Positions 821 to 29,647 of a DNA stretch of 37,369 nucleotides are shown one piece after another. The notes below the pieces were generated by a model. The model had not been told where the DNA came from, made no database searches, and saw nothing but the letters and a program-made list of their open reading frames with translations. Origin of the DNA: a virus; IMG/VR virus record IMGVR_UViG_3300049491_001064, positions 1-37,369 of that record. One strand, given 5' to 3'. Position numbers and translations under genes: made by a program. Numbering within the stretch: position 1 is the first letter of the stretch; each line of letters begins with the position of its first letter.

Positions 821-1066
821 ATGATTGGTATCCCTGCTGAAGTGTTAGGCGTGAAACGCAGTAAACCGTTTGCCTTTCGACCAGAGGGTGAGACTGAGCA
901 TGTTATTCGGGACGCGGTAAATGCGACCGGACTGAGCGTCACGGTCATTCTGAATCGATGCGTGGCGCGCGCGCTCCCCGAGGTAGTCCATGAGGCGGAG
1001 CAGGAACGCCAGCGCGCGGCCGCCAAGTTCATGAAAGATCATCCACCTGGCAAAAAGAAGGGCTGA
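821..1066 (+). CDS. Ribbon-helix-helix-like DNA-binding protein
   Basis: An 81-aa protein read rightward from the divergent control region. Residues about 18-52 have the Arc/MetJ-type pattern: a short extended segment (KPFAFRPEG) followed by two helices around a TGLS turn (RDAVNATGLSVTVILNRCVA). The C-terminus is Lys/Arg-rich. Size and pattern fit a small phage repressor or regulator that binds as a dimer of dimers, and the TGGTTAACCA palindromes just upstream are natural candidate sites. The following membrane gene starts 2 bp after the stop, so the two are probably co-transcribed. The fold is inferred by eye; a generic small helical protein is the alternative. Confidence 0.6.
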   Translation: MIGIPAEVLGVKRSKPFAFRPEGETEHVIRDAVNATGLSVTVILNRCVARALPEVVHEAEQERQRAAAKFMKDHPPGKKKG

Positions 1067-1067
1067 C

Positions 1068-1301
1068 ATGCGCCTCGTAGCCGCCTTCAGCGTTGGATTC
1101 CTCACCGCTCTGTTGCTGACGCTCGCCATCGTTGGTCGATATTCCTACCAGGCCAGCGCTCAAGGGTTGCTCTATCGTTCCGACCGATGGCCGCCCTTCC
1201 GTACGACTTACAGCCATTTCGGCAGTGCTTGGCGTGAAGTCAGTGACGGCGCCCAGAAGTACAATGCTGATGGGCTGGAAATCGTCACCCCCGAAAAATA
1301 A
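1068..1301 (+). CDS. Small membrane protein with NADGLEIV tail motif
   Basis: A 77-aa protein with one N-terminal hydrophobic helix (about residues 4-23, FSVGFLTALLLTLAIVG) and a soluble remainder with no recognised domain. Near the C-terminus it carries YNADGLEIV (residues 65-73), a peptide that appears three more times as NADG[LF]EIV in the 1658-aa virion protein at 3293-8269. It starts 2 bp after the preceding gene. Expression with the lysogeny-side genes and a single membrane anchor would suit a superinfection-exclusion or membrane-sensing role, but that is inference only. Confidence 0.65.
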   Translation: MRLVAAFSVGFLTALLLTLAIVGRYSYQASAQGLLYRSDRWPPFRTTYSHFGSAWREVSDGAQKYNADGLEIVTPEK

Positions 1302-1305
1302 ATCC

Positions 1306-1334
1306 TTGACACAAGAAAGCGCTTTCCTGTAGCG
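1306..1334 (+). promoter_or_regulatory. Promoter of integrase unit with internal LacI-type palindrome
   Basis: A perfect TTGACA box (1306-1311) stands directly upstream of the three-gene integrase unit. About 17 bp further on, at 1329-1334, the sequence is GTAGCG, a poor TATAAT match. Between them is the perfect 12-bp palindrome GAAAGCGCTTTC (1315-1326), with the central CG step and arm pattern of LacI/GalR-family operators (CcpA cre sites are similar). A repressor bound there would block polymerase. The palindrome and -35 box are seen directly; the regulator is inferred. Confidence 0.55.
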
Positions 1335-1344
1335 TCCCGGCTGC

Positions 1345-1497
1345 ATGAAAAGCAGAGCCGCTCAAGCCCTGGGACGCCTGGCCAAAGGCGTCTCGAAAAC
1401 ATTGACGCGCGCCCAGCGCCGGCAGCGCCGCGAACAACTCGCGGCCGCACGCGCCAAACGTTGGCCCGTCCAAACGTCCAAACACGAATCCAAATGA
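1345..1497 (+). CDS. Small basic protein upstream of integrase
   Basis: A 50-aa frame from ATG 1345, 11 bp beyond the end of the proposed promoter, ending in a 4-bp ATGA overlap with the next gene. It is very basic (run ending RRQRREQLAAARAKRW) and should be largely helical, as expected for a small nucleic-acid-binding protein. No family is recognised. Coupling to the integrase unit makes it a candidate accessory factor such as an excisionase or recombination directionality factor, which are often this small and basic. Evidence for coding is position, overlap and composition. Confidence 0.6.
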   Translation: MKSRAAQALGRLAKGVSKTLTRAQRRQRREQLAAARAKRWPVQTSKHESK

Positions 1498-1742
1498 ATG
1501 CCACGCTTCCCGCTTACGCGTTTCCCTATCAGTCCCCCAGCAGCAACGCCCACCGCGATGATCGCGGCGCCGAATTCCGCGGCGATGATGGCGGCTCGAT
1601 CACCGTCGCCATCGAGCGCGGCGAGGCAGGTACCGTTTACCTTTCCACGACGCGTTCCGGCTTCGGGGAAAACCAATTCACCCGCCCCGAACTGGGAAAG
1701 GTGCTCGAACTGGCCACAATCCTTTTCCACTCCCTCAAATGA
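1494..1742 (+). CDS. Hypothetical protein coupled to integrase
   Basis: An 82-aa protein from ATG 1494, which overlaps the previous stop as ATGA; an in-frame ATG at 1461 would overlap the upstream gene more and is less likely. Its own stop overlaps the integrase start at 1739 as ATGA. The N-terminus is Pro/Tyr-rich, followed by a beta-rich stretch (GGSITVAIERGEAGTVYLST) and a C-terminal helix. I do not recognise a family. Tight coupling on both sides suggests it acts with the integrase, possibly in control of excision or integrase level. Confidence 0.65.
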   Translation: MNATLPAYAFPYQSPSSNAHRDDRGAEFRGDDGGSITVAIERGEAGTVYLSTTRSGFGENQFTRPELGKVLELATILFHSLK

Positions 1743-3142
1743 GACCAACATCCGTCCCCTTCAAGCACAAAGGCCAAGCGTTCACCGTCTATCTCCGCAA
1801 ACGCGACATGGACCGCGGCAATGGCGAATCCGCCCAATATTACTTCAAGATCGACAACCGCCCCTTGAGCACCAAAAAGATCGAGCCCGCGGCCGCGATC
1901 GCTGAAGCCGTTGCGCGCCTCGAACTCCGCGCCAAAGCGCCGGGTGATTACAGCGTCGCCCTCGAGACGCTCAAAGCCCGTGGCGGCCGCACCGTAGGCC
2001 AGCTCGCGGACCTGTGGGTTGCCTCCGGCTACGCGAATCCGAATGGCGTCCCGCGGACCAGACCCCAAGCTGCGCGCCAGGCTGGCGCCCTCAAGCCGAG
2101 CCTCGTCTGGTGGCGCGAAAAAATCGTGAAAGCAATCACCGGCCCCACATTGAGCGAATATGCCGATTGGCGCCGCCTCCATTCCCGAGCCGGCAGCACC
2201 GGCAGCCGCGTGGTCGACATGGAACTCGCCGTCCTCAGCAGCCTCATGCACTGGGCTGTCGCCAAGGGCCACGCCGACAAAAATCCATTTGATAAACGGC
2301 CGCGATTTCAACCCGCCGAGGAAGTCAAACACTGCTACCGCTCGATGTGTGCGAGCGACGAAGAATTGCACCAGCTCACCGGCCTCCTCATCAGCAGTCC
2401 CGTCCCGCGCCTCATGGTCGCCGGCGCCCAGCTCCTCTTCAGCGCCCTCACGGGCCTGCGCCCAGGTGAACCCGGCCTCCTTCGATGGGACGCCACGTGG
2501 GCCGATGGTCGCCCGCAGCCTGGCTGCCGCTACAAAACGGCCGACGGCGCCACGCTCCTCGCCGTCGAGCGCTTGAAAGGCGGCATCAACCCTGCCGTGG
2601 TCATCCACCCTGCCCTTGCGGAGTATCTGGCGAAATGGGAAACCGCCTGCCGCACTCGCTGGCCGCAGAGCCCGTGGTTCTTTCCGGACCCCGCGGATCC
2701 GCGTCAACCCTACGTTGATCCGGAAGACAACCGCGCCCGCATGGCCATCGCGCTTGCCGGCGCCACCGCCGCATTGAAAATCGCGCACCGCAAACCTCAC
2801 GCCATGCGCGCCTACTACGTCCGCGTGCGCCGGAGCCAGGGCATCGATGATTCCAGGATTGCGCTCGAGCTCGGCCAGGGCAGCGGCGCCAGCATCATCG
2901 TGCAGACCTATGGTGACAGCCACGGCATCTTTGGAGACGGCCGTTTCGACTGGCGCCCGGCCGCTGCAGTCGCCGGCGCGCCGGTCCCGGTGAGCGCCTG
3001 GGACCTGCTGAGTCCTGCCGGCCCGGCCGTCATCACCCGCATGGATACTCCGTGGGATACTGCTGGGGATACTCCAGAAACTGACCGTGTGAGACCGTCT
3101 GAGACCGTTGCAGGAACGGCGTCAACCGCTGAATGTGGTTGA
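1739..3142 (+). CDS. int: Tyrosine recombinase (phage integrase)
   Basis: A 467-aa site-specific recombinase that would integrate and excise the phage at a tRNA gene. The catalytic domain shows Arg241 in TGLRPGE, a likely beta-hairpin Lys at about 280, the HxxR box as His354-AMR357, and the Tyr nucleophile at 391 (VQTYGD). The usual LGH before the Tyr reads LGQ (Gln380), an uncommon change at the His/Trp position. Residues about 80-200 are the core-binding domain, and the N-terminal 60 residues could be an arm-binding domain. It starts inside an ATGA overlap. The last ~30 codons contain GGATACT repeats that are probably arm-type binding sites, and the tRNA half at 3175 lies 32 bp past the stop, the standard int-attP arrangement. 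Confidence 0.95.
   Translation: MRPTSVPFKHKGQAFTVYLRKRDMDRGNGESAQYYFKIDNRPLSTKKIEPAAAIAEAVARLELRAKAPGDYSVALETLKARGGRTVGQLADLWVASGYANPNGVPRTRPQAARQAGALKPSLVWWREKIVKAITGPTLSEYADWRRLHSRAGSTGSRVVDMELAVLSSLMHWAVAKGHADKNPFDKRPRFQPAEEVKHCYRSMCASDEELHQLTGLLISSPVPRLMVAGAQLLFSALTGLRPGEPGLLRWDATWADGRPQPGCRYKTADGATLLAVERLKGGINPAVVIHPALAEYLAKWETACRTRWPQSPWFFPDPADPRQPYVDPEDNRARMAIALAGATAALKIAHRKPHAMRAYYVRVRRSQGIDDSRIALELGQGSGASIIVQTYGDSHGIFGDGRFDWRPAAAVAGAPVPVSAWDLLSPAGPAVITRMDTPWDTAGDTPETDRVRPSETVAGTASTAECG
3043..3073 (+). repeat. Three GGATACT direct repeats, left arm of attP
   Basis: GGATACT occurs at 3043-3049, 3055-3061 and 3067-3073, an exact 12-bp period, inside the 3' end of the integrase gene. 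Two more copies in the same orientation and on the same 12-bp period lie on the far side of the tRNA half. This matches the layout of arm-type integrase binding sites in lambda-like attP regions. Repeats are seen directly; the binding role is inferred. Confidence 0.75.
3081..3108 (+). repeat. TGAGACCGT helical-phase repeats near attP
   Basis: TGAGACCGT is present at 3090-3098 and 3100-3108, exactly 10 bp apart, with a related CTGACCGT at 3081-3088. Copies spaced one helical turn apart between the left arm repeats and the core are typical of cooperative accessory sites (excisionase-type). The assignment is inference from spacing and position. Confidence 0.5.
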
Positions 3143-3174
3143 CAGTCAATTTGATTAGTTCATAACTCCTTGAT

Positions 3175-3213
3175 GCGCCCGTAGCTCAGTTGGATAGAGC
3201 ATTTGCCTTCTAA
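3175..3213 (+). other. attP core: 5' half of tRNA-Arg(TCT)
   Basis: Bases 3175-3213 match the first half of a tRNA: acceptor strand GCGCCCG, D-arm (GCTC…GAGC), anticodon stem TTTGC and loop CTTCTAA with anticodon TCT. Homology stops exactly after the anticodon loop; the 3' side of the stem (GCAAA expected) and the T-arm are absent. It is therefore not a functional tRNA here but an attachment core of 39 bp shared with a host tRNA-Arg gene. Phage genes on both sides and GGATACT repeats on both flanks show attP rather than attL or attR. On integration the phage would supply the 5' half and upstream sequence of the tRNA gene. Confidence 0.85.
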
Positions 3214-3274
3214 CTAGACTTTCCACCGGCTTATCACATTCCGCATCAGTCTATTACACCAGAGAAAGGGGCGG

Positions 3275-3293
3275 GGATACTGGGCAGGATACT
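3275..3293 (+). repeat. Two GGATACT direct repeats, right arm of attP
   Basis: GGATACT at 3275-3281 and 3287-3293, again 12 bp apart and in the same orientation as the three left-arm copies. The last base touches the stop codon of the large virion gene. Together with 3043-3073 these bracket the tRNA core, at about 60-80 bp on this side and 100-130 bp on the other. Confidence 0.75.
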
Positions 3294-6200
3294 CACGGAA
3301 TCGTCGGCGCTGCCGCCGGCAACACATACACCCGCCGGCGTTTCATCTCCTGCCACGCGTGTCCCTGTTCCTCCGCCGGCAGTCGCACGATCGAGTTGCT
3401 CACGTATTGAGACCGCGCCTCGATGCCCATCGTCCGCGCGCGATGGATCACGTCATCGATGTAGGCGGCCGATTTCGCTTTCTGGACGATCTCCGGATAC
3501 CGCTCAATCATCTCCGCCGGCTTGCCGGGCAATAGAGTGAACCGGGGCAACTGCCGCGCGATCACATCAGTCGTCGGCTTTGGTGGTAGTTGGTCCGCAT
3601 AAGGCATCCACGGCGCCACCTTCCGGAGGGCACCGCTTTCACGCACGGTAGCCAGCACCGGGTTCGCTTCGTACACGGCATTGGCCATGTCGCTCGCGCC
3701 CTGGCTCTGCCCCGGGGGCACCACAGGGAACTGCCGCGGCACACCCAATGCCGGCTGGTAACCGCTCGCGGCGCCGACGGCAAAGCGCGCCGGCGGGCCC
3801 AGCGCTGGTGCGGTCCACGAGTTCACCAAGTCCCTCATCGAGGCGTCCAGCGCGGCTGCATTGTCAAGGCCCAAACGTTTGGACTCTACAGCGCCTCGCA
3901 CGCCCGAAACCCGCAGCGCGCGGCCGAAGCCCATCAGATCCAGCGCCGGTACCGTGAGCGGCCGGCCGGCCTCGTTGTCGCGGCCGGTGTCGATGCGCCC
4001 CAGGGGCGTGCCCGGCCGGCCCATCACGCCGCCGCCCTTCTTGTCCTTGGTCAGCACATAATTCAGCGCGCCGATGAGCACCGCCGAGCCCACCCATCGC
4101 GCCGCGATGGCCGCGCGCAACGTGGCCGCGGCCGCCGGCGTCGCTGCCTTCGCGCCCGGAGCCAGGAACAGGTTCCGCACGCCCAGCGTGTTGAAGGTCT
4201 TGCCCGCGGTCACAAATGGCCCCAAGCCCGTCTCGCGCAACGCATGCGTCAGCACCCCCTGCAGTCGCTTGTTGTATTGGCCGGCTTGGTTGACGAATTC
4301 CCGCCGCGCCGTCTCCGTGTTCACTACCAGGCCCCGCTCCGCCAGTCCCTGGAAGGTGTCATCGAGCACCAGCCGCGTCGTCTTATCCGCCCAATGAATC
4401 AGGCGCGAGAGCGGATTCCACGAGGCCCCATAGCTCCCGCGCATCGCGCCAATCTCCGCCAGCTGGCCCGTCTGCGCGCTGTGCTCGCCGAATCCCTTCG
4501 CCACCGCGCGCACGATGGCGGCCGGGATATCCGCCCGGCCAAAGGCACTCAGCAAAATGTCCCCCACGGGATTGCGAGCCCCATTCCCCGGCCGGGTGAA
4601 GAGCACCGTGGCCAAGTTGCTCACGTGCACTGTCGCATCCGTGAGGCCTGCCAGCGCCGCTTGGTTCAAGCCGCCCGTCAGCCGCCCGAGCGTCTCGCTG
4701 AATCGATTTCGGTAGAGGTTTGCCGCCAGCTCATATTCGCGCGCCAGGCTGCGCCGCACATAGATGTTCGCCGCCGCCGGCGCCATGCGCGTCGCGCCTC
4801 CTTCCGTCCGCGTCACCAGCACCGTGCGCCGGAGCGGGAATGGCACCGTCTCCTCCCCACCGATGGCCAGCGGCCGCGGGTCCGCCGGCGGTCCGATGTA
4901 AGCGTGCCCGCTCTCCACCAGGCGCGCGTCAAAGGCATTCTTGCTCGCGATCTCCAGCTGTCGGGCAAATGTGTTCTGCATGATCTCCCGGTAATCCGTC
5001 CCATAGAGCTCGCTCGCTCCCGTCGCGCGCCGGCCGAACGGGCTCTTGCGCCGGAACGTCGCCATGAGATTGGGCGCCACGCCTGCGATCACCCGCCGCG
5101 GCTTGCCCTCCATGTCCGGGCGCACCGCAAACAGATTGATGCGCGCCTGCGTCACCGATCCCCGCGTGGGCAATGGCAACAGATCATCGATGAGCATCGC
5201 CTGCCGGTACATCGGATCCACCACGCGCTCCCACGCTGCGCGATGGCGCGTTAATGCCTCCTGCACGCCCGGCCGCGCCGTGTAGGTCGCCAGGTCCGCT
5301 TCCGTATGGAATGGCGAGCCGGGCGCGCCCACCAGCGTGTGCACCTTGCCCGCGGCCTCGAGGTTCCCCTCCGCCGCGAATCCAGCGCGCACACTGCGCA
5401 GATTGTCCTCCGTCAGAAGTGCGCCGAATGCCTCCGGCTCCACATTGAGCCCGGCCAACACCTCATCCGCGAAAGCCTTCGCCGCATGCGGCGCCGCCAG
5501 GCTCGAGGAGGCATAGCGCACGCCCAGCTCGCCGGCGCGCCGATCCGCTCGCGTGGTACGCGGCATGGATTCCCCGGCCACACTGGCGATGGTCGCCCGC
5601 AGGTTGCCGCCCAGCTGCTGCAGGCCTGCCAACACCGATCGCGTGAGCGGCACAGGGCCCGCCGTGCTCAGCTCGCGCGCCGCATCCGCGGCCGCCTCGG
5701 CGCTCTGTACCGCGCGCAAGATCGGCCGCGCAGGCGGCAGGCCGGCGCCGGCGCCCAGGTTCAGCGAGCCCATGCCGGTGAATTCCCGTTGCGCCTCCTC
5801 CCAGATCCGGCGCAAGTGTGGCCGTATATCCGCGCCGTGTTCCGCCACCATCTTCTGCGACCAATCAGCGAATTTCCGCACGCCCCGCTCGAGCAGCGCC
5901 ACTCCCTTCACGACATAAGCCGCCAGCACATCCGGGCCCAGATGTGTGCCGCTTCCGCGCAACACCTGATCCGCCCACATCTCCAATTGCGTGCCGGCCA
6001 CCAGACCATGCTCGCCCCGGTGATAGATAATCTGCGAAAGCTGTTCCACCTTCCCATCGAGGTACGCCAGGTCCCGCACCATCGCCTGCGGGGGGTTGGA
6101 ATATTTCGAGGATTGCCGCGCCAGCGGCTTCGATTGCTCCAGCAATCCGTAGATGAGATCCCGTATCGCTTCGCTGGAGTCGGCACCATGCTCCATGATG

Positions 6201-8269
6201 GCGTCGATCTGCCCCTGCATGTATTTGAACTGCCTCAGCAGGCTCTTGTGCGAGGCCAGCGTCTCCCCGAAGAACGCCATGTTCCGCGCTACAATCGGTT
6301 CCTCCTCCGTCAGCCAGTCGAGTTTCGCTTGGAGTTCCGGCGGGCTCCCTCGGGGCGCGACAAGTCGTCGCGCAGGCCCTGAGGCAGGCTCGCCCCCCTC
6401 TCGCCCACCACCTGGCTTCCGTCCGGCATCTCCACGATCCAGCTCCCGTCCTTGAAGCGTTCCAGCTTCGGGCGCCGGTTCTGGCGTTTGGGGAAATAAC
6501 TCACCATGGCCGGACTCTACACCTGCAGGCCCTTCTCGCAAGCTCAACAAATCCCCGCCACCCAACAAATCTCCCTGCCCGATGTCGCCTTGTTTCCCAA
6601 TGAGCGGTTGCGCTGCACCTTCCTCCACCGCCCGGCGCTGCGCTGCAGCCGACCGTTGCGCCTCTTCCTGTGCCAGCCTGGCGTTCTGTTCTTGCACCGA
6701 TTCCGGCTTTGCCAATGCGAAGTCCTGCGTCGGCGCTGGCCAATCCTCCCGCGCTACCGGCTCTAATGTCCCCTTGTCGATGTGGATAAACTCCCGCCCG
6801 GGCTCGATCGTTTGGACACCGAATTTCGGCCCGTCCTTCACCACGATCCCCGTCAAGTTTTGGTCCTCGTCAAACTCCAATTTGCTCACCGTGAACTCGT
6901 GGTCCTGCACCTGGAATTTGTCGCCCTCGATGAGCTGGTCCACCGGCACCTGCTCCACGTTTCCCGCCTCCTTCCGCGGCCGTTCCCCCAGCAGCACGCG
7001 CTTCGTGAATTGCCTCTGTTGATTGCCCTCCGCCACGATGCTGCGCTCATAGCGCGCCCGCGCGCCGCGGAAATCTTTCCGGGCCTGCGCGGCCTGGTTG
7101 AGCATCTCTCCGAACTGATCCACCGTCACATCCGGATGCAGCAAGCCCTCATTCTGGAGCGCGTTCATCGCCTGGTCCGCGTGCGTCCGGGCGGATGCCG
7201 AGAATAAATTGCGCGCTGCACCGATAGCGCGCCAATCCGTGTTCGCCTCCCGAATCAGCTTGGGATTGATTTTGCCCACGTGCCCCTCGATGGCATCGAT
7301 GATGTCGAATGGGCGCTCCTCTGTAGTCCGCCGGGAAGGCGTCGCCGCCCTGGGGCGTTCCTCACGCTCCGCCGGCATTGCAGAAGCTGTTCCCTCATCC
7401 GGCGCTGCAGGCACCGGGCCGGTGATAGTTTCCGGGGGCGACGACCGTTCCACCGTGCCCGGCGGCCGTTCCGTTGTCAATCCGGGCCTCTCCACGATTT
7501 CAAATCCGTCTGCGTTGTACACTGCGGCTCCGGACAGCGCCGGCGCCACTTCGCGCACCATCGGTTCCGTTATCAGGTCCCCCACCCTCGGTCCCGGCGC
7601 CTCCTCGATGGCCCGCGCCAGCTTGCGCGCCAACGGCTCCAGCTCCAGATGCATCTCACGGTATCCGTGCGAGCCCGCCAGCCCTGCCATCGCCAGGTTG
7701 CCCAGTCCCTCCGTCAGGGCCTGTGCCTGGCCCGGTCTATCGCCGGCATACGCCGCCTCCCAATACTTCTGCCACGCGTCCGGCGCATGACTCGCCATGT
7801 CCGCAGCAAAAGCCGTGCTGGCCAACGCCCGCACAGCCCCAGGCGCCGCGCCCAGGCCCAACGTGGCGAGCCCCGCCGGCGACGTCATGAACTGCCCGGC
7901 GCCTGTGGCTACATTCTCCACCCCCTTCACTACGGCCGCGGGCGTGCGCAATGCCGGCACCTTCTCTCCGATGGCCTCCATCTGCAGCCCCAGGCTGAAC
8001 GGCCGGAGCGGAATCCCCTTCGTCAACAGCTCGAGCGGCGATTCCGAGACATGCTTATTTCCCGGGAGCTGATCCCCCCGCGGCGTATAAAGTCCACCTT
8101 CCCCTTCTCGTCCTGGATAGAACGGCGGCGCCCATTGCGTGGGGAACTCAGCCCTCGCCGGCGAGGGCGCGGCTATCGGCTCGACGATCTCGAAGCCATC
8201 CGCGTTACGCCGCCCAACTGCCGGCACCGCTTCCTCCACGATCTCAAGGCCGTCGGCATTGGTGGGCAT
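3293..8269 (-). CDS. Large internal virion / ejection protein (gp16-position)
   Basis: A 1658-aa protein, last gene of the leftward operon, in the position of T7 gp16 after gp14- and gp15-like genes. NADG[LF]EIV occurs three times near the N-terminus (residues 4-11, 22-29 and 252-259). Hydrophobic Ala/Gly-rich helices at about 110-160 and near the C-terminus (VGSAVLIGALNYVLTK) fit a protein that enters or crosses membranes during DNA ejection. Around residues 440-510 there is a small beta-rich segment (QLIEGDKFQVQDHEFTV) like those in large polyvalent phage proteins, and the C-terminal third resembles the LPD-type domains of that group. No transglycosylase motif is evident to me. The start at 8269 is 5 bp after the preceding stop. 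Confidence 0.8.
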   Translation of the reverse strand: MPTNADGLEIVEEAVPAVGRRNADGFEIVEPIAAPSPARAEFPTQWAPPFYPGREGEGGLYTPRGDQLPGNKHVSESPLELLTKGIPLRPFSLGLQMEAIGEKVPALRTPAAVVKGVENVATGAGQFMTSPAGLATLGLGAAPGAVRALASTAFAADMASHAPDAWQKYWEAAYAGDRPGQAQALTEGLGNLAMAGLAGSHGYREMHLELEPLARKLARAIEEAPGPRVGDLITEPMVREVAPALSGAAVYNADGFEIVERPGLTTERPPGTVERSSPPETITGPVPAAPDEGTASAMPAEREERPRAATPSRRTTEERPFDIIDAIEGHVGKINPKLIREANTDWRAIGAARNLFSASARTHADQAMNALQNEGLLHPDVTVDQFGEMLNQAAQARKDFRGARARYERSIVAEGNQQRQFTKRVLLGERPRKEAGNVEQVPVDQLIEGDKFQVQDHEFTVSKLEFDEDQNLTGIVVKDGPKFGVQTIEPGREFIHIDKGTLEPVAREDWPAPTQDFALAKPESVQEQNARLAQEEAQRSAAAQRRAVEEGAAQPLIGKQGDIGQGDLLGGGDLLSLREGPAGVESGHGELFPQTPEPAPEAGTLQGRELDRGDAGRKPGGGREGGEPASGPARRLVAPRGSPPELQAKLDWLTEEEPIVARNMAFFGETLASHKSLLRQFKYMQGQIDAIMEHGADSSEAIRDLIYGLLEQSKPLARQSSKYSNPPQAMVRDLAYLDGKVEQLSQIIYHRGEHGLVAGTQLEMWADQVLRGSGTHLGPDVLAAYVVKGVALLERGVRKFADWSQKMVAEHGADIRPHLRRIWEEAQREFTGMGSLNLGAGAGLPPARPILRAVQSAEAAADAARELSTAGPVPLTRSVLAGLQQLGGNLRATIASVAGESMPRTTRADRRAGELGVRYASSSLAAPHAAKAFADEVLAGLNVEPEAFGALLTEDNLRSVRAGFAAEGNLEAAGKVHTLVGAPGSPFHTEADLATYTARPGVQEALTRHRAAWERVVDPMYRQAMLIDDLLPLPTRGSVTQARINLFAVRPDMEGKPRRVIAGVAPNLMATFRRKSPFGRRATGASELYGTDYREIMQNTFARQLEIASKNAFDARLVESGHAYIGPPADPRPLAIGGEETVPFPLRRTVLVTRTEGGATRMAPAAANIYVRRSLAREYELAANLYRNRFSETLGRLTGGLNQAALAGLTDATVHVSNLATVLFTRPGNGARNPVGDILLSAFGRADIPAAIVRAVAKGFGEHSAQTGQLAEIGAMRGSYGASWNPLSRLIHWADKTTRLVLDDTFQGLAERGLVVNTETARREFVNQAGQYNKRLQGVLTHALRETGLGPFVTAGKTFNTLGVRNLFLAPGAKAATPAAAATLRAAIAARWVGSAVLIGALNYVLTKDKKGGGVMGRPGTPLGRIDTGRDNEAGRPLTVPALDLMGFGRALRVSGVRGAVESKRLGLDNAAALDASMRDLVNSWTAPALGPPARFAVGAASGYQPALGVPRQFPVVPPGQSQGASDMANAVYEANPVLATVRESGALRKVAPWMPYADQLPPKPTTDVIARQLPRFTLLPGKPAEMIERYPEIVQKAKSAAYIDDVIHRARTMGIEARSQYVSNSIVRLPAEEQGHAWQEMKRRRVYVLPAAAPTIP

Positions 8270-8273
8270 GATA

Positions 8274-9290
8274 TCACTGGGCCAACTTATAACCCTTGCC
8301 GCTGAACTCGCCCATGCGTGTGCGCGGCACTCGCACCTTGTTCCCCGCCTTATCGAACATCAACACATCCGCGCTGCCTCTGCCGGATTGAAATCGTTGC
8401 AGGAAGGCATCCACCCGCTTCTCCCGTTCCTCGCTGCTCAATCCCAGCGCCGGCCCGCTGTCGAGGATGGCCTTTACGCCGGCGGCGGCCGCCACCTTAT
8501 CGATGTCGCTCATTCCCTCGTGGAACGGCAGGTGTTGCCAATGCGGTTTCAACGCGGTGCCCTTGTTGTAATAGCTCACCCCATCCGACCCCGTGAACAC
8601 CGCTGGCTGCTCCTGGCCGGCTTCCGGCATCATTACGCTGCTATTCGGGCCCGTTACTACCGCGCGCTGGCCCGGCAACACCGTTCCCTCCGGCGTCTTG
8701 ATTGGTATAGCCACGCCGAACTGGTCCGTCTTGAAGAACGCCTCCCGTCCACCACGGGCGCCCGGCGGCATCGCTGCCCGCAGCACGTCATCCGCGGCCG
8801 TCAACGGCACCTGGTACCCCGTCCGGGCCGCGCTGGCTGCCAACTGCGGGAGCGCGACCTGTTCCTGCCCATCCGGCAATGCGAATTGGTTGAACTCTTT
8901 TTCCGGGATATCGTACGGTAGCGCTCCCGGGGGAGCGTAACGTGCCACGTCTCCGAGGAACGCTGGCTCTCTTGCCGCGTTCTCCCGCGTCGCCCGCTTG
9001 CCCGCGATCACCTCCGCCATCTCGTCCGCCTGCAGCTTCTGTCGTTTGAACCCCTGCGCTTGGATCATTCCCACCATCGCGCTGGCCTTTTCGAGTGGGC
9101 TCTGCAAGTGCCACACGTCCGCCGGCATCGGCAGCTGATCCTCCGGGAGCGCCTTGAAGAACGCATCGGCCGCCTTGCCCGCCTGCAGCGCCCGCTTCCG
9201 CGTGTCCGAGGCCTCCTCCGCCTGGCGGCCCAGATCCGCGAGCATGCTGCCTGCGATGAACCCACTCTGGTTTTGAACAAACGGGATCAT
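8274..9290 (-). CDS. Internal virion protein, gp15-position
   Basis: A 338-aa protein from ATG 9290, which overlaps the upstream stop as TGATG and is preceded by GGAGGAGGG, one of the clearer ribosome sites in the window. The longer in-frame start at 9362 would extend into the previous gene and is unlikely. Mostly helical and charged, with an Ala/Arg-rich N-terminal third and a C-terminal segment (DVLMFDKAGNKVRVPRT) that resembles a small beta domain. No family is recognised. Position between a short Gly/Ala/Gln-rich protein and a very large protein matches the gp14-gp15-gp16 ejection set of T7-like phages. Confidence 0.75.
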   Translation of the reverse strand: MIPFVQNQSGFIAGSMLADLGRQAEEASDTRKRALQAGKAADAFFKALPEDQLPMPADVWHLQSPLEKASAMVGMIQAQGFKRQKLQADEMAEVIAGKRATRENAAREPAFLGDVARYAPPGALPYDIPEKEFNQFALPDGQEQVALPQLAASAARTGYQVPLTAADDVLRAAMPPGARGGREAFFKTDQFGVAIPIKTPEGTVLPGQRAVVTGPNSSVMMPEAGQEQPAVFTGSDGVSYYNKGTALKPHWQHLPFHEGMSDIDKVAAAAGVKAILDSGPALGLSSEEREKRVDAFLQRFQSGRGSADVLMFDKAGNKVRVPRTRMGEFSGKGYKLAQ

Positions 9291-10237
9291 CAGTAAAACC
9301 CTCCTCCCGAGGTCCAATCCGGCAGATATCCGCCCCCACCACCCGCGCCGGGGGTCGTCCACGGATTATTTTGCGCGTTCGAATATCGGAACGCTCCCTG
9401 CGCCAGCCCCGCACCTGCGGCCGCCAAATTGTTCAACCCGCTGTTGTAGTTCGAGAGATTCGCCGCATAGGCGCTCTGTTGCGATTGCGCCACATCCGGG
9501 TTCCACGGCGTGCTGCGCACCGGCGGCCCGCCCTGCACCTGCGTCGCTGCCCCCAGCAATCGGATCGAATCACTCACCGGTTCCCCGCGGAACGCCCGGT
9601 CCGCGCCCAGCACGCCCGAGGCATACGCCCCGCGCGCCATCCGCCGGCTATCCCGGCCGCGATCCAGCCCGATCAACTCCGCCAACGTATCCCGCGTCCC
9701 GTAACCCTGCCCCCTCGAGGCCTGGCTCCCGCGAATCATCTGCTGCAGATCATGTTCATCCAGTGGGTTATCCCCGCGCCCCACCAGGTTGCGCGCATCC
9801 GCCACCAGCTGATCATTCAGCGCGAATCCGCTCGGATCCCCGCTCCGCTGCAGGTTTTGCAGCTCCGGCTGTGCCTGGCGCAGCAGCTCGATCATCCCCG
9901 GCGATTTCGGCGCCGGCAAATCCCGGTAACGCGTCTCCCAATGCGTCGGCTCCCCGCCGCGTTTGGGGATCTGCACCCGATAGGGCACCTGGATCGTCCC
10001 GCCCGGATTCCCGAAGAGCGCCATCTGCTGCAGCTGCTGGTTTAAGCCCCCGTACCGCAGCGCATCCTCATAATCCTGCGCGAAAGTCCGGCCCCCGTAC
10101 AGGTCCCGCCCTTGAGCGGTGGAGAGCGCCAGCGTCTTGGGCCCGGGCGCACCGCCGCCGCCGCCCTTGCCCGATTGGCTGGCCGCGTAAGCCGTCCCCG
10201 CGGCCGCCACCGCTGCTGCTGCAATTGCTGCGCCCAT
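9290..10237 (-). CDS. Internal virion protein, gp14-position
   Basis: A 315-aa protein with a hydrophobic Ala-rich N-terminus (MGAAIAAAAVAAAGTAYAAS), a Gly tract and a Gln/Asn/Ala-rich body ending in a Gly-rich tail. The low-complexity, membrane-prone N-terminus is typical of phage ejection proteins that form a conduit with two partners. It is followed by the gp15- and gp16-position genes with a TGATG overlap, and starts 5 bp after the citrate-synthase-like gene. The function is inferred from gene order and composition. Confidence 0.7.
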   Translation of the reverse strand: MGAAIAAAAVAAAGTAYAASQSGKGGGGGAPGPKTLALSTAQGRDLYGGRTFAQDYEDALRYGGLNQQLQQMALFGNPGGTIQVPYRVQIPKRGGEPTHWETRYRDLPAPKSPGMIELLRQAQPELQNLQRSGDPSGFALNDQLVADARNLVGRGDNPLDEHDLQQMIRGSQASRGQGYGTRDTLAELIGLDRGRDSRRMARGAYASGVLGADRAFRGEPVSDSIRLLGAATQVQGGPPVRSTPWNPDVAQSQQSAYAANLSNYNSGLNNLAAAGAGLAQGAFRYSNAQNNPWTTPGAGGGGGYLPDWTSGGGFY

Positions 10238-10241: not shown

Positions 10242-10829
10242 TTAGTAAATTGAGGACATCATAAGAGATTTTGCCCACGCATCCAGGCGCCCCGAGATGA
10301 AGAGCCACGCCGCCGCCCGCGCCGGAATCCCCACCGCGATCGCCGCCGCCGCCGTGAACGCCGAGGCATTCGGCAAGAGCACCAGCCCCTTCCGCTTGTT
10401 TAACATCATCTGCGACACCGCGTCCAGACGCGCCGCCAGCGGCTTGAAGTGTTCCCGCAAGCACGCGTCCACCCCGGTCCAGATCGGGTCCGGCGTCCCG
10501 CGGTGGAAGGAGTTTCCCCAGCCCGGCACGAACTCCCCGCGCTCGAGCATCTGCCACGCCTCCAGCTCCGGGCGCTCGCGCTCCAACAGCTCCACCGTCT
10601 GTTCCAGCGGCGCGTGCATCCCGCCCAGCGTCAGGAGCGCCCCGGCAATGGCGCCCGTAAAACTCCCGCTGCCCGCGTATGCGCTGCGGAGCATCACCGA
10701 GCTAATGTTGTCGCGCCGCGCGCTGTCCGCGTGCGCCTCGTGCACCCGGAAGAGCAGCACCGCCTCCGGCTCCGTGAGCGATTCTGTGCGCCACCAGGGC
10801 GTCCACGGGGTCAATGGCACTGCCGGCAT
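10242..10829 (-). CDS. Citrate-synthase-fold protein, degenerate active site
   Basis: A 195-aa protein from ATG 10829 (TGATG overlap with the sulfotransferase-like gene; the upstream in-frame ATG lies inside that gene). It follows the citrate synthase / citryl-CoA lyase pattern in order: VHEAHADSA (30-36, family DHELNAS), GAIAGALLTLGGMHAPLEQ (59-77, family …GPLHGGANE) with His72 kept, VPGWGNSFHRGTPDP (101-115, family PGFGHRVYKxxDPR), LLPNASAFTAAAA (151-162, family NVDFYSG) and WLFISGRLDAWAK (175-187, family FAIxRxxGWxAH) with Arg181. Two catalytic residues differ: the GFGH His is Asn106 and the NVDF Asp is Ser156. Full citrate synthases are about 400 aa, so only the C-terminal part of the fold remains. 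Probably a structural or binding protein rather than an enzyme. Confidence 0.7.
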   Translation of the reverse strand: MPAVPLTPWTPWWRTESLTEPEAVLLFRVHEAHADSARRDNISSVMLRSAYAGSGSFTGAIAGALLTLGGMHAPLEQTVELLERERPELEAWQMLERGEFVPGWGNSFHRGTPDPIWTGVDACLREHFKPLAARLDAVSQMMLNKRKGLVLLPNASAFTAAAAIAVGIPARAAAWLFISGRLDAWAKSLMMSSIY

Positions 10830-11440
10830 CACGCCACCACCTCCTGGGCCCGTTCCACCAGCCGCATCATCCGCGCCGGATCCACCGCCACCCGTTCCGG
10901 CATGATCCGCATCCGAAAATCCATCAACATCCGGTTCCGCACCTCCGGATATTCCGCCCCCGGCAACAGATGCTCCCACGCCTGGCGCAGGCCCGCTTCC
11001 GTGCTCAGCGCCTCCATCGGCACTGTGAGCACATCCGGCGCGTGATCAAGGAATTCCTGCTGCACCTGCTGCAAGCGGTCGAACACCGCCACCGTTTCCG
11101 GCCACGTTGGCGATCGCATCCCCTGGTAGGGCGTCCGTCCAAACGCCTGGAAGAAACACGCCCGCGCCTCTTCGAACGGCCGGCGCACGTGCAGCCAGCG
11201 GGCCCCGGGGAAGAGAGCCATCGTCCGCCGCCACACCATCAAGAGCCCCGAGTCGCTCGTGCCCACCGTGCGGGCCCCCGTGGCGGCCGCCAGCGCCTCG
11301 AAATGCGCCGGCAATTCCGCCACGTCCTCCAAATGTTTCAGCGCGTCATGCTCCACGAAGGCCTCGCCCCAGGTGAACAGATTCGCCAGCCACGCCGTGC
11401 GGCTCCGCGGCAACCCCGTGATGAAAATCGGTGCGTTCAT
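10829..11440 (-). CDS. Sulfotransferase-like protein
   Basis: A 203-aa protein from ATG 11440, which overlaps the upstream stop as ATGA. It opens with a beta strand and loop, IFITGLPRSRTAWLANLF, the 5'-phosphosulfate-binding loop of PAPS-dependent sulfotransferases (GLPRSRT at residues 9-15). A later segment, FPGARWLHVRRPFEEARACF, matches the region around the 3'-phosphate-binding Arg (family xIxxxRDPxxxxxS). It is shorter than typical bacterial sulfotransferases (250-300 aa). Known phage sulfotransferase-like proteins have unclear targets; here a surface sugar or a virion protein is possible. It is coupled by TGATG to the citrate-synthase-like gene. Confidence 0.75.
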   Translation of the reverse strand: MNAPIFITGLPRSRTAWLANLFTWGEAFVEHDALKHLEDVAELPAHFEALAAATGARTVGTSDSGLLMVWRRTMALFPGARWLHVRRPFEEARACFFQAFGRTPYQGMRSPTWPETVAVFDRLQQVQQEFLDHAPDVLTVPMEALSTEAGLRQAWEHLLPGAEYPEVRNRMLMDFRMRIMPERVAVDPARMMRLVERAQEVVA

Positions 11441-11814
11441 AGACTGGCCGGCATCCCCGGGAACCACACCGCCACCAGCTCCACCTTCCAGGAGGTCACC
11501 GTCATCGTCGAGATGCCGTCCGCCGACTTCGATTCCACGCCCAGGCTCGAGCCGTAAATGAATCCTGTCACCAGGCCCGGCTTCGCGCTGATGTAGAAAT
11601 GCGCCGTCGCCGAGCCATGCCCGTACAAGTGATGCACATCCCCGGGCAACCATCCGCTATCCGCCACCTGGCAAGTCAACCGCAGGAACATCAAGTCCGG
11701 CGGCCGCGACATCGCATGGTTGATCTTGAGCGTCTGATTGAATGCCGAGAGCAGTACCGGCTCCGAGCACAGGATTCCCCCCGTCTGTTCCAGTGCATAT
11801 AACGCGGTATTCAT
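11437..11814 (-). CDS. Hypothetical structural protein
   Basis: A 125-aa protein with a beta-rich middle and C-terminal half (TAHFYISAKPGLVTGFIYGSS) and no signal peptide or membrane helix. No family is recognised. The start lies 1 bp after the upstream stop and the end overlaps the sulfotransferase-like gene by ATGA, so it belongs to the tail module transcript. A small tail or fibre-base component is the most economical guess. Confidence 0.65.
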   Translation of the reverse strand: MNTALYALEQTGGILCSEPVLLSAFNQTLKINHAMSRPPDLMFLRLTCQVADSGWLPGDVHHLYGHGSATAHFYISAKPGLVTGFIYGSSLGVESKSADGISTMTVTSWKVELVAVWFPGMPASL

Positions 11815-24001: not shown

Positions 24002-25036
24002 TTACGACTGAACGATTTTCCCGTTCCCCCGGGGAGAGCGGCAGATGTTGGCCCATTGGCACGAGAGCACGCCGCCCTCACCGCTGGCGTTCTTCCACTC
24101 CTCTGATTGCTGCAGGTCCTCCAGCATGTCCAGATACCAGAGCTCCAGGAAGAGCACCAGGCCCGCGTTCGGGTCCCCCACGCCCGAGCTGCTGATCTGG
24201 TTGAACTCCGTCGCCATCACGTCCAAACGTCCGAAGGACGTCTCGTACAGATTCACCATCATCCGGATCGTCATCTCGTCCGCTCCCTGGCGCACCAGGT
24301 AATTCTGTTGTGCGGCCGGGTTGGCGATCACGCTCGATGACACGATCCGGCTGAAATGATCGATCGTGCTCACCACGTTATTGCCGCCGATGAGTTGGAA
24401 CGAGCGCTTGCCGCCGTGGATCGCTTTCAGGCTCTTCAACTGGTCATAGAGCTGATCCTCGCTGAACAGGATGCCGGTCGAAGCCCCGTGCACCATCACG
24501 TCATTGGCCCCCACGCGGAAATCCGTGCTCACGGTCGGCGAGAGCGTCACGGTGGTCGGGTCCAGCCACTTGAACGCCCCGCGGGTCTGCATCGTGGCCG
24601 CGCCGCCGCCGCCGTCCTGCGTTTCCAGATTCGAACAATTCACCGCCTCGATGTCCCGTTTGACCTCCAGCTCCGTGCGCGCCGCGTCCCGTTCCATGGC
24701 GTTGGGCACTCCGGCGATGCCCCCGCGCTGGCTGATGAGCTGTTGCGTGCGCGTCACCGCCCATTCGTCCATGCTGCGGTGCAGGTACACGCCGAATCGC
24801 CCGCGTTTGACTTCCTTGTTGCCGCCTTTTCCGGTAGGCGCATCCTCGCGTGCCCCCGTGGTGCGCGGCGCCCGCATGCGATCCGAGAGCGTCTCGATGA
24901 GAGTCGAGGCCGCCTCCTCCCGTTTGTCCACCAGCGAGGTGAATGGAGTTTCCTGCGGTTCCAGCAGGGTGATGTCATTCCGGAGATCCTCGCGTTGTCC
25001 GCCTGTCGTCCCCGGATTTGCTGTCGTTGCATCCAT
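24002..25036 (-). CDS. Major capsid protein (SU10 / DUF5309-type)
   Basis: A 344-aa protein with the family opening REDLRNDITLLEPQETPFTS, a central region with alternating strands (TVTLSPTVSTDFRVGAND) and a C-terminal segment describing a P-domain-like fold (GRLDVMATEFNQIS … LVLFLELWYLDML). This opening, in which an essential tract of acidic residues precedes a conserved TPF, is seen in HK97-fold capsid proteins of the SU10/DUF5309 group. It follows the scaffold gene, as expected, and is bordered on both sides by repeats. Length is normal for the group. Confidence 0.85.
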   Translation of the reverse strand: MDATTANPGTTGGQREDLRNDITLLEPQETPFTSLVDKREEAASTLIETLSDRMRAPRTTGAREDAPTGKGGNKEVKRGRFGVYLHRSMDEWAVTRTQQLISQRGGIAGVPNAMERDAARTELEVKRDIEAVNCSNLETQDGGGGAATMQTRGAFKWLDPTTVTLSPTVSTDFRVGANDVMVHGASTGILFSEDQLYDQLKSLKAIHGGKRSFQLIGGNNVVSTIDHFSRIVSSSVIANPAAQQNYLVRQGADEMTIRMMVNLYETSFGRLDVMATEFNQISSSGVGDPNAGLVLFLELWYLDMLEDLQQSEEWKNASGEGGVLSCQWANICRSPRGNGKIVQS

Positions 25037-25108: not shown

Positions 25109-26449
25109 CTATGCGGCAGCCGCTTCCCGGCGCAGCCTGGTCAATTGTCGGCGGTCCTCGACCGTCATGCTTCCCCTCTCGGCAATGCGTGCCTCCACTT
25201 CCTGAATCTGCTGTTGTGCTCTGCTCAACCTGGGGCCCGGCGCACTGGCGCTCGTCACCACCGGCGCCGGCACTGCCGCCGCCCGCGCCCGCGTGAGGGG
25301 CGGCGCCACCGGCGGCGGCAACGCACCCGCAGCGGTTCTGACCGTGCGCGAGCGTTTCGCCGTCACATGTGCACCCACCATCAGCGGCCAATCCGGCAGA
25401 TAGGAGATCCCCGGATTCGCCTCCATGAACGCCCGCGCCTCCACGTATTCCGGGCTCGAGGTATTCTTGAGCCACGGATACATTTCCAGCGCCTGCGTCT
25501 CCGCCGCGCGAAACCGGGTGGCCATCGTTTGCTGTTGTGCCACCGCTGCGATCTCCCGCCGGGTGACCAGCGCCGTCCGCTGGTCCACGAGGCCCGAGGC
25601 CTGTCTGCGCCATTCCGCCAGATACTGCTGGAGGCCTGCCGCATCCACCTCGATTGGATTGCCCTGCTGATCCCGCAACGTCCCGCCTTCGGGATTCACG
25701 GCCGCCCACGCGATCGCCCGATCCAGCCGGCCCTGTTGCTTATCCAGGTCCACGAGCTGCTGTTCGATCACATGCAACGGCTGAGCTGCCTGCACCGCAG
25801 GAGCATCCGGCCCGGCAGGTTGTCCGCCGGCAGCGGGTTCTCCTGTCGCCTCAGCCAGCCGCCGCTCGGCATCGATGCGCGCATTCCGTTCCGCGTCCCG
25901 CTGGTCCACGACCTCATGAATGCGGGCCACCGCCTTCTTGAGGCCCGCCGGCGTATTCGCGTCGGCGAGTATTTCGTTGAGCCAGGCTGGCCGTTCCGTG
26001 GCGGCATCCGGCCCGGGCGCAGGTGCGTCCTCCGTATGTGCTGTGGGTTCTGTGCCTAGGGCTGAGCCATCCGGCTCAACCCCGTGTTGGGTTGAAGAAA
26101 TGGCCGCCGACCCCGGGTCAACGGCAGATTCAGGAAGCGCCGACACCACTGGCGCGCTCGTGCCGGCGGCAGGAGCCGGGGCGGGCGCGGTTTGAGGAAG
26201 TCCGGCTGCGGCCGCCGGCGGGGCTTCACTGGCCGCCGGAGCTACAGTTGGAGGCGCGCTTGCCGCGGGAGCGCTGGGGGCGGGCGGGGAGATAGCGCGT
26301 GCGCTCTGCCGCCGCCCCGTGTAGGGCGGCCGCACGCTGGACAATCTCCGTGCCCTGTCGTCTGTCGAGATATTTTGCGGGACAGGCGGCGCCGTGGTCA
26401 CCACGGCCGGGGCGGCGGGCTGAGAGGGAGGAGCAATGATGGGGTCCAT
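25109..26449 (-). CDS. Capsid scaffold protein
   Basis: A 446-aa protein from ATG 26449 (alternative in-frame ATG 26482). The N-terminal ~150 residues are Pro/Ala-rich and disordered; residues about 170-330 are charged and helical with coiled-coil segments (QRDAERNARIDAERRLAEA; HVIEQQLVDLDKQQGRLDRA); the C-terminal end is a basic helix (RIAERGSMTVEDRRQLTRLR), the kind that binds capsid protein. This, with its place between portal and major capsid genes, identifies a scaffold. No protease motif is visible. A double hairpin repeat at 26063-26095 interrupts the disordered part in frame. Confidence 0.8.
   Translation of the reverse strand: MDPIIAPPSQPAAPAVVTTAPPVPQNISTDDRARRLSSVRPPYTGRRQSARAISPPAPSAPAASAPPTVAPAASEAPPAAAAGLPQTAPAPAPAAGTSAPVVSALPESAVDPGSAAISSTQHGVEPDGSALGTEPTAHTEDAPAPGPDAATERPAWLNEILADANTPAGLKKAVARIHEVVDQRDAERNARIDAERRLAEATGEPAAGGQPAGPDAPAVQAAQPLHVIEQQLVDLDKQQGRLDRAIAWAAVNPEGGTLRDQQGNPIEVDAAGLQQYLAEWRRQASGLVDQRTALVTRREIAAVAQQQTMATRFRAAETQALEMYPWLKNTSSPEYVEARAFMEANPGISYLPDWPLMVGAHVTAKRSRTVRTAAGALPPPVAPPLTRARAAAVPAPVVTSASAPGPRLSRAQQQIQEVEARIAERGSMTVEDRRQLTRLRREAAAA
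26063..26095. repeat. Double hairpin element inside scaffold gene
   Basis: Two abutting inverted repeats: TGAGCC-ATCC-GGCTCA (26063-26078) and TCAACCC-CGTGTT-GGGTTGA (26076-26095). On the leftward strand they encode STQHGVEPDGSAL within the disordered Pro/Ala region of the scaffold. The composition differs from its surroundings, suggesting an inserted mobile short repeat. Confidence 0.55.
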
Positions 26450-26655
26450 GCAATTAACGGCTGCAAGAGCCGAAGGAATCATGTCTTGCCGACAAGTGGC
26501 GTGTTTGAATCACGAGTGCGCACTTACGGCAGCAGACGGGGAGCGGTCAACGAGGAGCGATCCTCCCGGGCCGAATGATCCTCCCGGGCCGGAAAAAAGG
26601 ACAGAAGACGGAGGACAGAAGACCGACGACAGCCTCAGCCAGCCGCCCTCAGCCC
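26450..26655. other. Non-coding gap before scaffold gene, repeat-filled
   Basis: The largest non-coding gap in the leftward operon (206 bp, or 173 if the scaffold starts at 26482). It holds two copies of GATCCTCCCGGGCCG 18 bp apart (about 26559-26592) and most of a repeat-based inverted structure. No ORF or good promoter is seen. It could separate expression of portal-side and capsid-side genes. Confidence 0.5.
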
Positions 26656-27427: not shown

Positions 27428-29647
27428 TCAGCGCGCCGCGGCCGCCGGCGTATCCCCCAGTCGCCCGCTCTGCGCGTTTACCGTGTATTGCTGCACCTGA
27501 TGGTTAAGCTGCTGCAGCCGGTTTTCCACCAGCTCCTTGAAGTCCTCGTCCTCCATATACATTTTGCGCAGCTTCGGATTATTCTGAATCTCCTGCTGCA
27601 GCGTCTGCGCCCGCAGTTGCCAGGCCTGCCCCGGCTTCACATCCACGCCGATGCCTGAGACCAGTGCGGGCAGCACATGCGTGCGCTCGTCCTCCACCTC
27701 CGCCGCGCTCGCCGCCTGGGCGGGTTTGAGCACACGCTCCGCCAGGTTCGGATCAAACGCGTCGAACGCGTAACCGATCAGCTCATCCCGATCCACGCGC
27801 CCGCCGATATCCCATGCCAATACCTCCCCGAAAAATTCGAACACCGGCTTCAGGTTGGCCAGATCCATGTTCGCCATGTTATAGCTGATACTGACATCGA
27901 ACTGCCCCTGGATCTCATCCCGTTTCACGTGGAGGGCCTGCGCCTGGTCATTGCCCACCACCCGATAATAGATGTCCTCGGGCCCCAGCTGTTGCATCAG
28001 CTGCAGCGATTGCGTGTCCACTCCCTGCCAGCCTTCCATCCATTTGTCCGCCAGATCCTGGTCCATCGCCGTCGCCGCGATTTGATTGTCGCCATCCGGC
28101 AGCCGCCGGCCCATGCGCCGGTCCGCGTGATGCCGGATGGATTCCTCGATCTCCTTCGAGCCCGGATTAAAGGAGGGACTCTCGAAAAACCCGTAGCCCT
28201 CCGGCCGATTCGTTTCGATCTGCACCCCCGGCCCCCACTCCTCCGGCGCCTCATTAGCCGGATGATGCGAGGGCGGCAGCGTCCGGATGCTCGAGGCATC
28301 CAATCGCAAATCCCATTGGCCCTTCACCTGCGCCTGGTGTGTGTTCAGGATTTCGCCGTATCCCCGCGAATCATCCAGCACCCGCGAGATCCGTTCGCGC
28401 TGAAAATACGTGAAGGGCATTTCCCCGTGTTCATAATTGAGCAGCCCATGCCACGCGTAGCTTTGCCCCCGCTGCCGCGTCGCCGAGTTGTTCGTCATGC
28501 CCGCGTGAAAACAGGTGTACCAAATCCCCAGCACGCCCTCCTCATCCGCCAGCCGTCTATACGCATGGACGATCTCAAACAACTTCCCTGCCGAAAGAAT
28601 CGAGAGGCCCCCCGTGCGTTTAAACAGCCGCGTCCCCGCCAGGCCCGTCACCCCCAGCCCATTGGCCACATTGCCCCGCTGCGTCTTCACCACCTCATTC
28701 ACGAACTTCTCATCCCACCCGTGCGAGACGATCCGCTCCCGCAAGATCGCTTCCGTCAACAATTCGCGGCGATAGATGCTCCGTGTCGATTCCAGGTCCA
28801 CCGCGTCCTCCGGCACGAAGATCTCCTCATTCGGCGAGAGCGCCAGGATGCACGGCCGGTTCTCCTTGAGATACGGCCTTGGGAACCGCGCATACCCCTC
28901 CGTCCGCAGCGCCACCACCGCCTTGCGCGCCGCGTCCGGTTTCACATCCGGAAACCGCGCCCCAAACAATTTCAGCGCCTCATCCTCCCGCGCCGGATCC
29001 CGCACCGCCGGCGGGAACACCACCTTCGCCACGAGCTGTTCGGGCGTGTAACCCGGCGGCACCAGGCCCCGCTGCAGGAGCTCCTGCGCCTGCTGCGCCT
29101 CCGTCAGGAGTGTTTCCAGATCGATCTCGTCATAACCCATCTGCGTCTGCCGTTTCCAGAACGTGCCCATGATGCAACTGCCCCGTTCCAGCAGCCAATT
29201 GGCGCACAGCTCCGCCTCCGCTGCCGCCTCCTTCATCTGCGTGTAGCGCAGCCACCGCAGGAGCTGCGTGAGCCTCGTCGCCCGCTCCGTGTCATTGGAT
29301 TCCGTGGGCGCCACGTGAATCTTATTGCGGCGCCACACCGTCATCAGCTTCGCCTTATCCTCCACGATGTAGGTATCCACCAACATCGGCCGCGAGTCGC
29401 TGGCCCCCTTCCATGGGCGCACCTCCCGTTCGCCCTTGCGCGGCGACCATTTCCGGCCGTCATCCGATTGGCCCGGCCACTGGCAGAAGCGCACGTCATT
29501 GTTGAGCTTCTGCCGACCGAACAGCGAATTGGAGCGGCGCCGGATGCACCATTGGTAATCCTCCATCACCTCCGCGAGGTCAGGCGATTGGCGTGCGAAC
29601 TCCTTGAGTTCAGGTTTGGAGGCAGGTAAGGGCGTAGGCTTGGCCAT
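27428..29647 (-). CDS. Portal protein (P22-like head-tail connector)
   Basis: A 739-aa protein, the usual length for P22-type portals (725 aa). It begins with a helical segment (ELKEFARQSPDLAEVMEDYQ), then the typical portal-core pattern with early Arg/Trp-rich loops (WRRNKIHVAPTESNDTERAT), a long helical stem region and a C-terminal coiled coil (ELVENRLQQLNHQVQQYTVN) as in the barrel of podovirus portals. It lies between the terminase block and scaffold/capsid genes. It would form the dodecameric DNA entry ring. Confidence 0.85.
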   Translation of the reverse strand: MAKPTPLPASKPELKEFARQSPDLAEVMEDYQWCIRRRSNSLFGRQKLNNDVRFCQWPGQSDDGRKWSPRKGEREVRPWKGASDSRPMLVDTYIVEDKAKLMTVWRRNKIHVAPTESNDTERATRLTQLLRWLRYTQMKEAAAEAELCANWLLERGSCIMGTFWKRQTQMGYDEIDLETLLTEAQQAQELLQRGLVPPGYTPEQLVAKVVFPPAVRDPAREDEALKLFGARFPDVKPDAARKAVVALRTEGYARFPRPYLKENRPCILALSPNEEIFVPEDAVDLESTRSIYRRELLTEAILRERIVSHGWDEKFVNEVVKTQRGNVANGLGVTGLAGTRLFKRTGGLSILSAGKLFEIVHAYRRLADEEGVLGIWYTCFHAGMTNNSATRQRGQSYAWHGLLNYEHGEMPFTYFQRERISRVLDDSRGYGEILNTHQAQVKGQWDLRLDASSIRTLPPSHHPANEAPEEWGPGVQIETNRPEGYGFFESPSFNPGSKEIEESIRHHADRRMGRRLPDGDNQIAATAMDQDLADKWMEGWQGVDTQSLQLMQQLGPEDIYYRVVGNDQAQALHVKRDEIQGQFDVSISYNMANMDLANLKPVFEFFGEVLAWDIGGRVDRDELIGYAFDAFDPNLAERVLKPAQAASAAEVEDERTHVLPALVSGIGVDVKPGQAWQLRAQTLQQEIQNNPKLRKMYMEDEDFKELVENRLQQLNHQVQQYTVNAQSGRLGDTPAAAAR

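Follow-up and report, generated by a model that had tools for sequence, protein, structure and literature searches.

A peptide shared by a putative ejection protein and a small membrane protein of a phage, and its counterparts in related phages

The locus and the four copies of the peptide

The window is the whole stretch of DNA analysed, 37,369 nucleotides from IMG/VR virus record IMGVR_UViG_3300049491_001064. The features relevant here lie in an integrase operon on the plus strand and at the far end of a late operon on the minus strand.

821-1066, plus strand: 81-aa ORF, ribbon-helix-helix-like by eye, abutting the membrane-protein gene
1068-1301, plus strand: 77-aa orphan protein, with an N-terminal membrane helix at about residues 3-22, a soluble part of about 50 aa, the peptide at residues 66-73 and the end TPEK
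1263-1286, plus strand: peptide copy NADGLEIV, residues 66-73 of the 77-aa protein
1739-3142, plus strand: tyrosine integrase (PHROG 1, E=1.7e-14; 50% identical in relative G039)
3293-8269, minus strand: putative large ejection-type (DarB-like/polyvalent) protein of 1658 aa (PHROG 10089 DarB-like, E=1.9e-5)
8237-8260, minus strand: peptide copy 1, NADGLEIV, residues 4-11 of the 1658-aa protein
8183-8206, minus strand: peptide copy 2, NADGFEIV, residues 22-29 of the 1658-aa protein
7493-7516, minus strand: peptide copy 3, NADGFEIV, residues 252-259 of the 1658-aa protein
8274-9362 (ATG probably at 9290), minus strand: putative ejection-module neighbour immediately upstream of the large gene, in a gene order shared with relatives G011 and G005 and with BcepIL02
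9290-10237, minus strand: putative 315-aa ejection-module protein, with tblastn homologs in L056, L135, L132, L060 and L051 that adjoin their large genes

The peptide NADG[LF]EIV occurs exactly four times, always in frame, and a scan of all six frames of the window found no further copy; the positions given by the first-pass annotation were thus correct. From composition, about 3e-6 occurrences would be expected in all window ORFs of at least 30 aa. Any pair of copies has 2-3 codons in common over 7-8 identical residues, with 17-19 of the 24 bases the same. This confirms the earlier remark that the codons differ, and such codon divergence with the peptide kept supports the accompanying proposal that selection acts on the peptide and that recent DNA copying is not involved. 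When 10-mers of the large protein were scored against every window ORF outside it, the copy in the 77-aa protein scored 41. The best score elsewhere was 33 (95 other records, about 2.2 million ORF residues) and 0 of 4000 column-permuted motifs reached 41. The sharing of the peptide between the 77-aa and 1658-aa proteins is real and far above chance.

A ribosome-binding-like AAGAAGG precedes the ATG of the 77-aa ORF, which starts 1 nt past the stop of the upstream ORF. The 77-aa ORF contains a single strongly hydrophobic stretch (19-residue mean of 2.4 at residues 4-22), and no relatives of it were found in IMG/VR, annotated phages, Pfam or PHROGs. The gene lies between the 81-aa ORF, for which no Pfam match was found, and the integrase, all three being on the plus strand, and the integrase downstream marks this as the lysogeny side. 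Directly 3' of the membrane-protein gene, at 1305-1335, a TTGACA is followed by the palindrome GAAAGCGCTTTC, a possible operator-promoter for small ORFs ahead of the integrase. The gap between the integrase and the large gene contains, at 3178-3222, a sequence resembling the 5' half of a tRNA gene (GTAGCTCAGTTGGATAGAGCATTTGCCTTCTAA); ARAGORN found no complete tRNA there, and this may possibly be the attachment site.

The 1658-aa ORF, which ends the late operon, shows sequence homology to DarB-like/polyvalent virion proteins of podophages. Its residues 751-840 are 52-54% identical to relatives and, in tblastn, matched giant DarB-like podophage proteins (BcepIL02, Pavtok, SopranoGao, 8P, JC1, BKO1-TP3 and others) with E values of 5e-4 to 0.9, the best being 5e-4 to 9e-4 and most being weak. 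A related DarB-like protein, JC1 gp69, has been detected in virions by mass spectrometry (PMC9144972). The order of the two genes neighbouring the large gene is kept in relatives. Because of the DarB-like homology, the virion detection of JC1 gp69 and the kept neighbour order, the 1658-aa protein is called ejection-type, that is, probably an internal virion protein, with homology and gene order as the basis and JC1 as an analogy; the label of virion protein used in the first-pass annotation stands on the same homology and gene order. BcepIL02 gp70, JC1 gp69 and 8P gp023 resemble it in the homologous 60-90-aa segment and in their late position after other virion genes, and the giants of 8P and BcepIL02 also carry tandem peptides. 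However, the Bcep22-like giants are 2-3 times longer, with transglycosylase, helicase and methylase parts, and their peptides are different ones. Adjoining the ejection genes, ORFs at 10829-11653 and 10242-10979 (both minus strand) gave weak sulfotransferase-like and citrate-synthase-like matches.

Tandem peptides in the terminase relatives

Back-translated peptides of the large protein gave no relatives, and the terminase was therefore used as bait; the major capsid protein as bait also found none. The resulting set comprises 17 phages picked by terminase alone, the window's own phage being counted, and in each the largest late protein was examined. ORF sets were obtained by ORF tiling and not by gene calling, and several relatives are incomplete contigs. 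Two terminase relatives sit in Verrucomicrobiota assemblies, which suggests that Verrucomicrobiota are the host group.

The literal NADG[LF]EIV was absent from 17 terminase relatives (terminase 28-83% identical). An exact-motif scan of IMG/VR gave 25 matches, all in unrelated places and thus background, as were 2 isolated matches among 384 genomes from the class of a verrucomicrobial relative. The first-pass annotation had made its proposal depend on the motif being kept in close relatives and exceeding chance elsewhere. Taken literally, the outcome goes against the proposal, the peptide being absent from the relatives and at background elsewhere; the relatives, however, carry their own equivalents instead.

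An N-terminal tandem peptide of 2-4 copies opens the largest ejection-type protein in 12 of the 17 phages, as judged by a shuffle test covering residues 1-60. Ten of these gave p of at most 0.006, one 0.014 and one 0.044, values to be read with the caution that motif copies were picked by inspection of each large protein, for which the shuffle and permutation controls correct only partly. The short element at the extreme N-terminus of the window's protein (residues 4 and 22) has the same placement in these 12, and in 8 of them a further copy is found at residues 234-355, past a moderately hydrophobic region. The peptides differ between phages as follows.

G011: TLTFEDA
G013: VEFIDE (VEFIDEA)
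G039: DEWxxLG
G030: FDPxxPFE
G019: DDVLPSQR
G034: PPDSDxVV
G045: PDFATL
G043: IDFxEEP
G038: SLADxLxxEA
G005 and G009: P[TS][WF][DE]xT, the only peptide type that two of the phages share

Across these phages the place of the putative tag is conserved while its sequence changes from phage to phage.

The remaining five large proteins open with other N-terminal sequences and have no array, which counts against a docking role for the peptide. Three of them gave shuffle p of 0.014-0.033 from weaker internal similarities and were excluded from the tandem count. Given these five relatives, the N-terminus looks exchangeable. The array-less proteins (L150:10833, plus strand; L140:5168, plus strand; L054:1-5160, minus strand; L138:2-7195, minus strand; L143:1-4185, minus strand) have other kinds of short N-terminal sequence, RAKYPQYxDVPDDKL, PDGVELEYPDGM and YQIEDSETGTTL, which are perhaps alternative loading modules.

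Scanning DNA for WD[DE]T in tandem showed that P[ST]W[DE][DE]T arrays begin large proteins in further phages. Some of these proteins have dissimilar downstream sequences, indicating that the N-terminal element behaves as a module. The annotated 5146-aa structural protein of Pseudomonas phage 8P opens with tandem DQKPWESF. A synthetic PSFDDT array searched against annotated phages gave only weak matches (E of at least 2), the labelled ones being mostly ssDNA-binding or hypothetical proteins, and was discarded. In Bacteroides phage BKO1-TP3 the giant gp55 is adjoined by gp56 (L244:4504-5619, plus strand), which opens with an N-terminal tandem of its own, PKGSKEWHEQQ / VKGTQEWAEQK; the tandem of gp55 is 22 residues and differs from that of gp56. 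In the open-access literature searched, several of these peptides were looked for and turned up no paper, and none was found that describes such arrays, subscription journals lying mostly outside the search.

Second carriers of the peptide

For each of the 12 tandem phages, all other ORFs were scanned with the phage's own copies as the query. In 10 of the 12 nothing rose above permuted motifs, which counts against a docking tag, though the weight of this absence is small since several relatives are incomplete contigs. Second carriers stood out in two phages, the window (score 41) and G011 (score 39). For G011 the next best score among 96 records was 32, and 1 of 4000 permuted motifs reached that of the carrier. 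The carrier is an 89-aa protein encoded in the terminase-portal interval, with the C-terminus AMSFEEASRPA. In Flavobacterium phage 1/32 a homolog matches the body of the protein and is without the motif tail. Comparison with the large protein of G011 showed 4 of 7 identical residues with the same codon. In two phages, then, a small unrelated protein also carries the peptide of the ejection protein at its very C-terminal end, so that the C-terminal copy in the window is not a unique case.

Other candidates were rejected. The ITYVDGA of a small secreted protein in G013 resembles the VEFIDEA of that phage and scored at background. Extra WD[DE]T sites in array phages, one in a ribonucleotide-reductase-like protein (by eye, two records) and one in a 215-aa nuclease-like protein (by eye), were judged to be chance. 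In IMG/VR contigs of 38-42 kb there are also genes for proteins of 61-77 aa that begin with a hydrophobic stretch and carry WDDTDP[KR]G three times (L184:89-322, plus strand; L211:744-929, minus strand; L217:1159-1344, minus strand); in the two records checked (G433 and G434) there were no WD[DE]T sites other than those of this small-protein gene.

Possible roles of the peptide

The first-pass annotation had suggested a docking tag on an ejection protein. This is borne out in part: the kept position, the C-terminal copy in G011 and the precedent of P1 DarB make it the best explanation available. A pattern that is short, repeated, predicted as coil, conserved in position, private or nearly private to each phage and portable is what would be expected of a docking motif with a co-diverging partner. 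AlphaFold2 applied to residues 1-300 of the large protein (4 sequences) gave coil at the copies and helices between them at a pLDDT of 35, which makes the model unusable as evidence. We give about an even chance to NADG[LF]EIV being a phage-private docking peptide, a short linear motif acting as a capsid-loading or positioning tag. What the sequences show is the repeats, their phage-specificity, their conserved positions and the C-terminal copies; we infer the partner, the loading, the co-divergence of tag and partner and the topology of the membrane protein. The N-terminal copies and that near residue 250 would have as their probable target a structural component of the procapsid, be it the scaffold, the portal or a fellow ejection protein; in the window a candidate scaffold gene lies at 25109-26482, the portal at 27428-29647 and the capsid protein at 24002-25036. 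Such binding would load or position the DarB-like internal protein in the head. Peptide and partner would diverge together, giving each phage its own version, and the same peptide grafted onto the 77-aa membrane protein or the 89-aa protein of G011 would bring its carrier to the same partner. A membrane protein encoded in an integrase operon is, however, an odd cargo, which counts against pure loading.

The T4 capsid-targeting sequence is present as one N-terminal copy that is later cleaved, whereas the peptides described here stand in tandem, are found at internal and C-terminal sites too, and vary between nearly all phages. The likeness lies in a short N-terminal element common to otherwise unrelated packaged proteins, as the internal proteins of T4 use such a targeting sequence (PMC3012670). 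P1 DarB is closer, being a large DarB-like internal protein whose first 30 residues suffice to carry a reporter into heads (PMC9024508). A tag copy on a second protein has not been reported for P1, and the P1 DarB N-terminus (MNKLSMGVFRCSSVSEILKYIRAITSHRAP) contains neither a peptide similar to that of the window nor a tandem acidic motif, which speaks against the tag. Thus membership of the window's peptide in the capsid-targeting class would be by position and logic and not by sequence.

The main rival is superinfection exclusion by a decoy. Here a membrane protein expressed from the prophage would show the tag in the periplasm, occupy its partner, either a second ejected protein or an inner-membrane factor of the host, and block conduit assembly by incoming related phages. 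The gene beside the integrase, on the lysogeny side and outside the late operon, and the presence of one membrane helix, the tag being at the free end, agree with this. So does P22 SieA, a prophage inner-membrane protein that blocks injection and from which mutations in the ejection proteins gp16 and gp20 allow escape (PMC10883804). SieA demonstrates that ejection proteins can be blocked by a membrane protein of a prophage, which is why mimicry of the tag is the main rival; if the decoy were correct, both would be small prophage-encoded membrane proteins acting on ejection proteins, although peptide mimicry is absent from the account of SieA (PMC10883804). Against a decoy, the charges flanking the helix leave its topology unfixed, and the second tagged protein of G011, encoded in the terminase-portal interval, shows by eye no obvious membrane helix. 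A tagged membrane protein was seen in no relative, and the 77-aa protein itself is an orphan. No homology of the 77-aa protein to a known exclusion protein was found in Pfam, PHROG or annotated phages. On balance a decoy seems rather improbable. The residues of T7 gp16-N that act as a 'molecular tape', binding gp15 and stitching it together (PMC8954989), suggest another role, in which the tags would work only after ejection, joining the large protein and a smaller ejection protein within a periplasmic tunnel. In several relatives the copies lie on both sides of a helical hydrophobic region, and two other ejection-module genes are kept beside the large gene, both as such a tape would have it, but arrays also open large proteins with dissimilar downstream sequences, and a tape alone leaves the copy on the 89-aa protein of G011 unexplained. 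We regard this role as unlikely.

The two remaining alternatives are less probable still. The copy at the end of the membrane protein could be a functionless relic left by recombination, in which a piece of an ejection gene from another phage became fused to it. The 77-aa protein has no relatives, so the descent of its tail is untraceable, which leaves room for a relic; yet the peptide has stayed the same as its codons changed, and G011 provides a second independent C-terminal case with 4 identical codons among 7 identical residues. A relic is thus very unlikely. Prohead proteases of the T4 type follow the rule (L/I)-x-E, and the repeats might then mark processing points, given that in the large protein NADGxEIVE, with I-x-E, is the reading of all three copies. 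The membrane-protein copy reads EIVT, most of the relatives' peptides fit no single cleavage rule and no protease family was found among the proteins scanned, leaving cleavage sites as the least probable of these readings and one that we scarcely credit.

Returning to docking, the way in which capsids select their internal (ejection) proteins is understood poorly except in T4 and P1, in part because the fast divergence of ejection proteins defeats alignment. A rule applicable to sequence would be to find a tandem phage-private N-terminal peptide in the largest late protein and then the other carriers in the same genome, and this would yield candidates for packaged or exclusion proteins among uncultured phages. 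A wider conjecture, which we think quite doubtful, is that private, fast-diverging address peptides sort the internal virion proteins of many phages and that some temperate phages copy theirs onto a lysogeny-side membrane protein, jamming ejection by related invaders, the ensuing arms race driving divergence of the peptides.

Elsewhere in the window, a clear DUF5131 gene lies near the replication module at 34460-35425 (minus strand). The open ORF at the left end (1-438) runs in frame into that at the right end (36896-37369), both on the minus strand, giving 303 aa when joined, which suggests that the genome is circular or permuted although its ends do not overlap.
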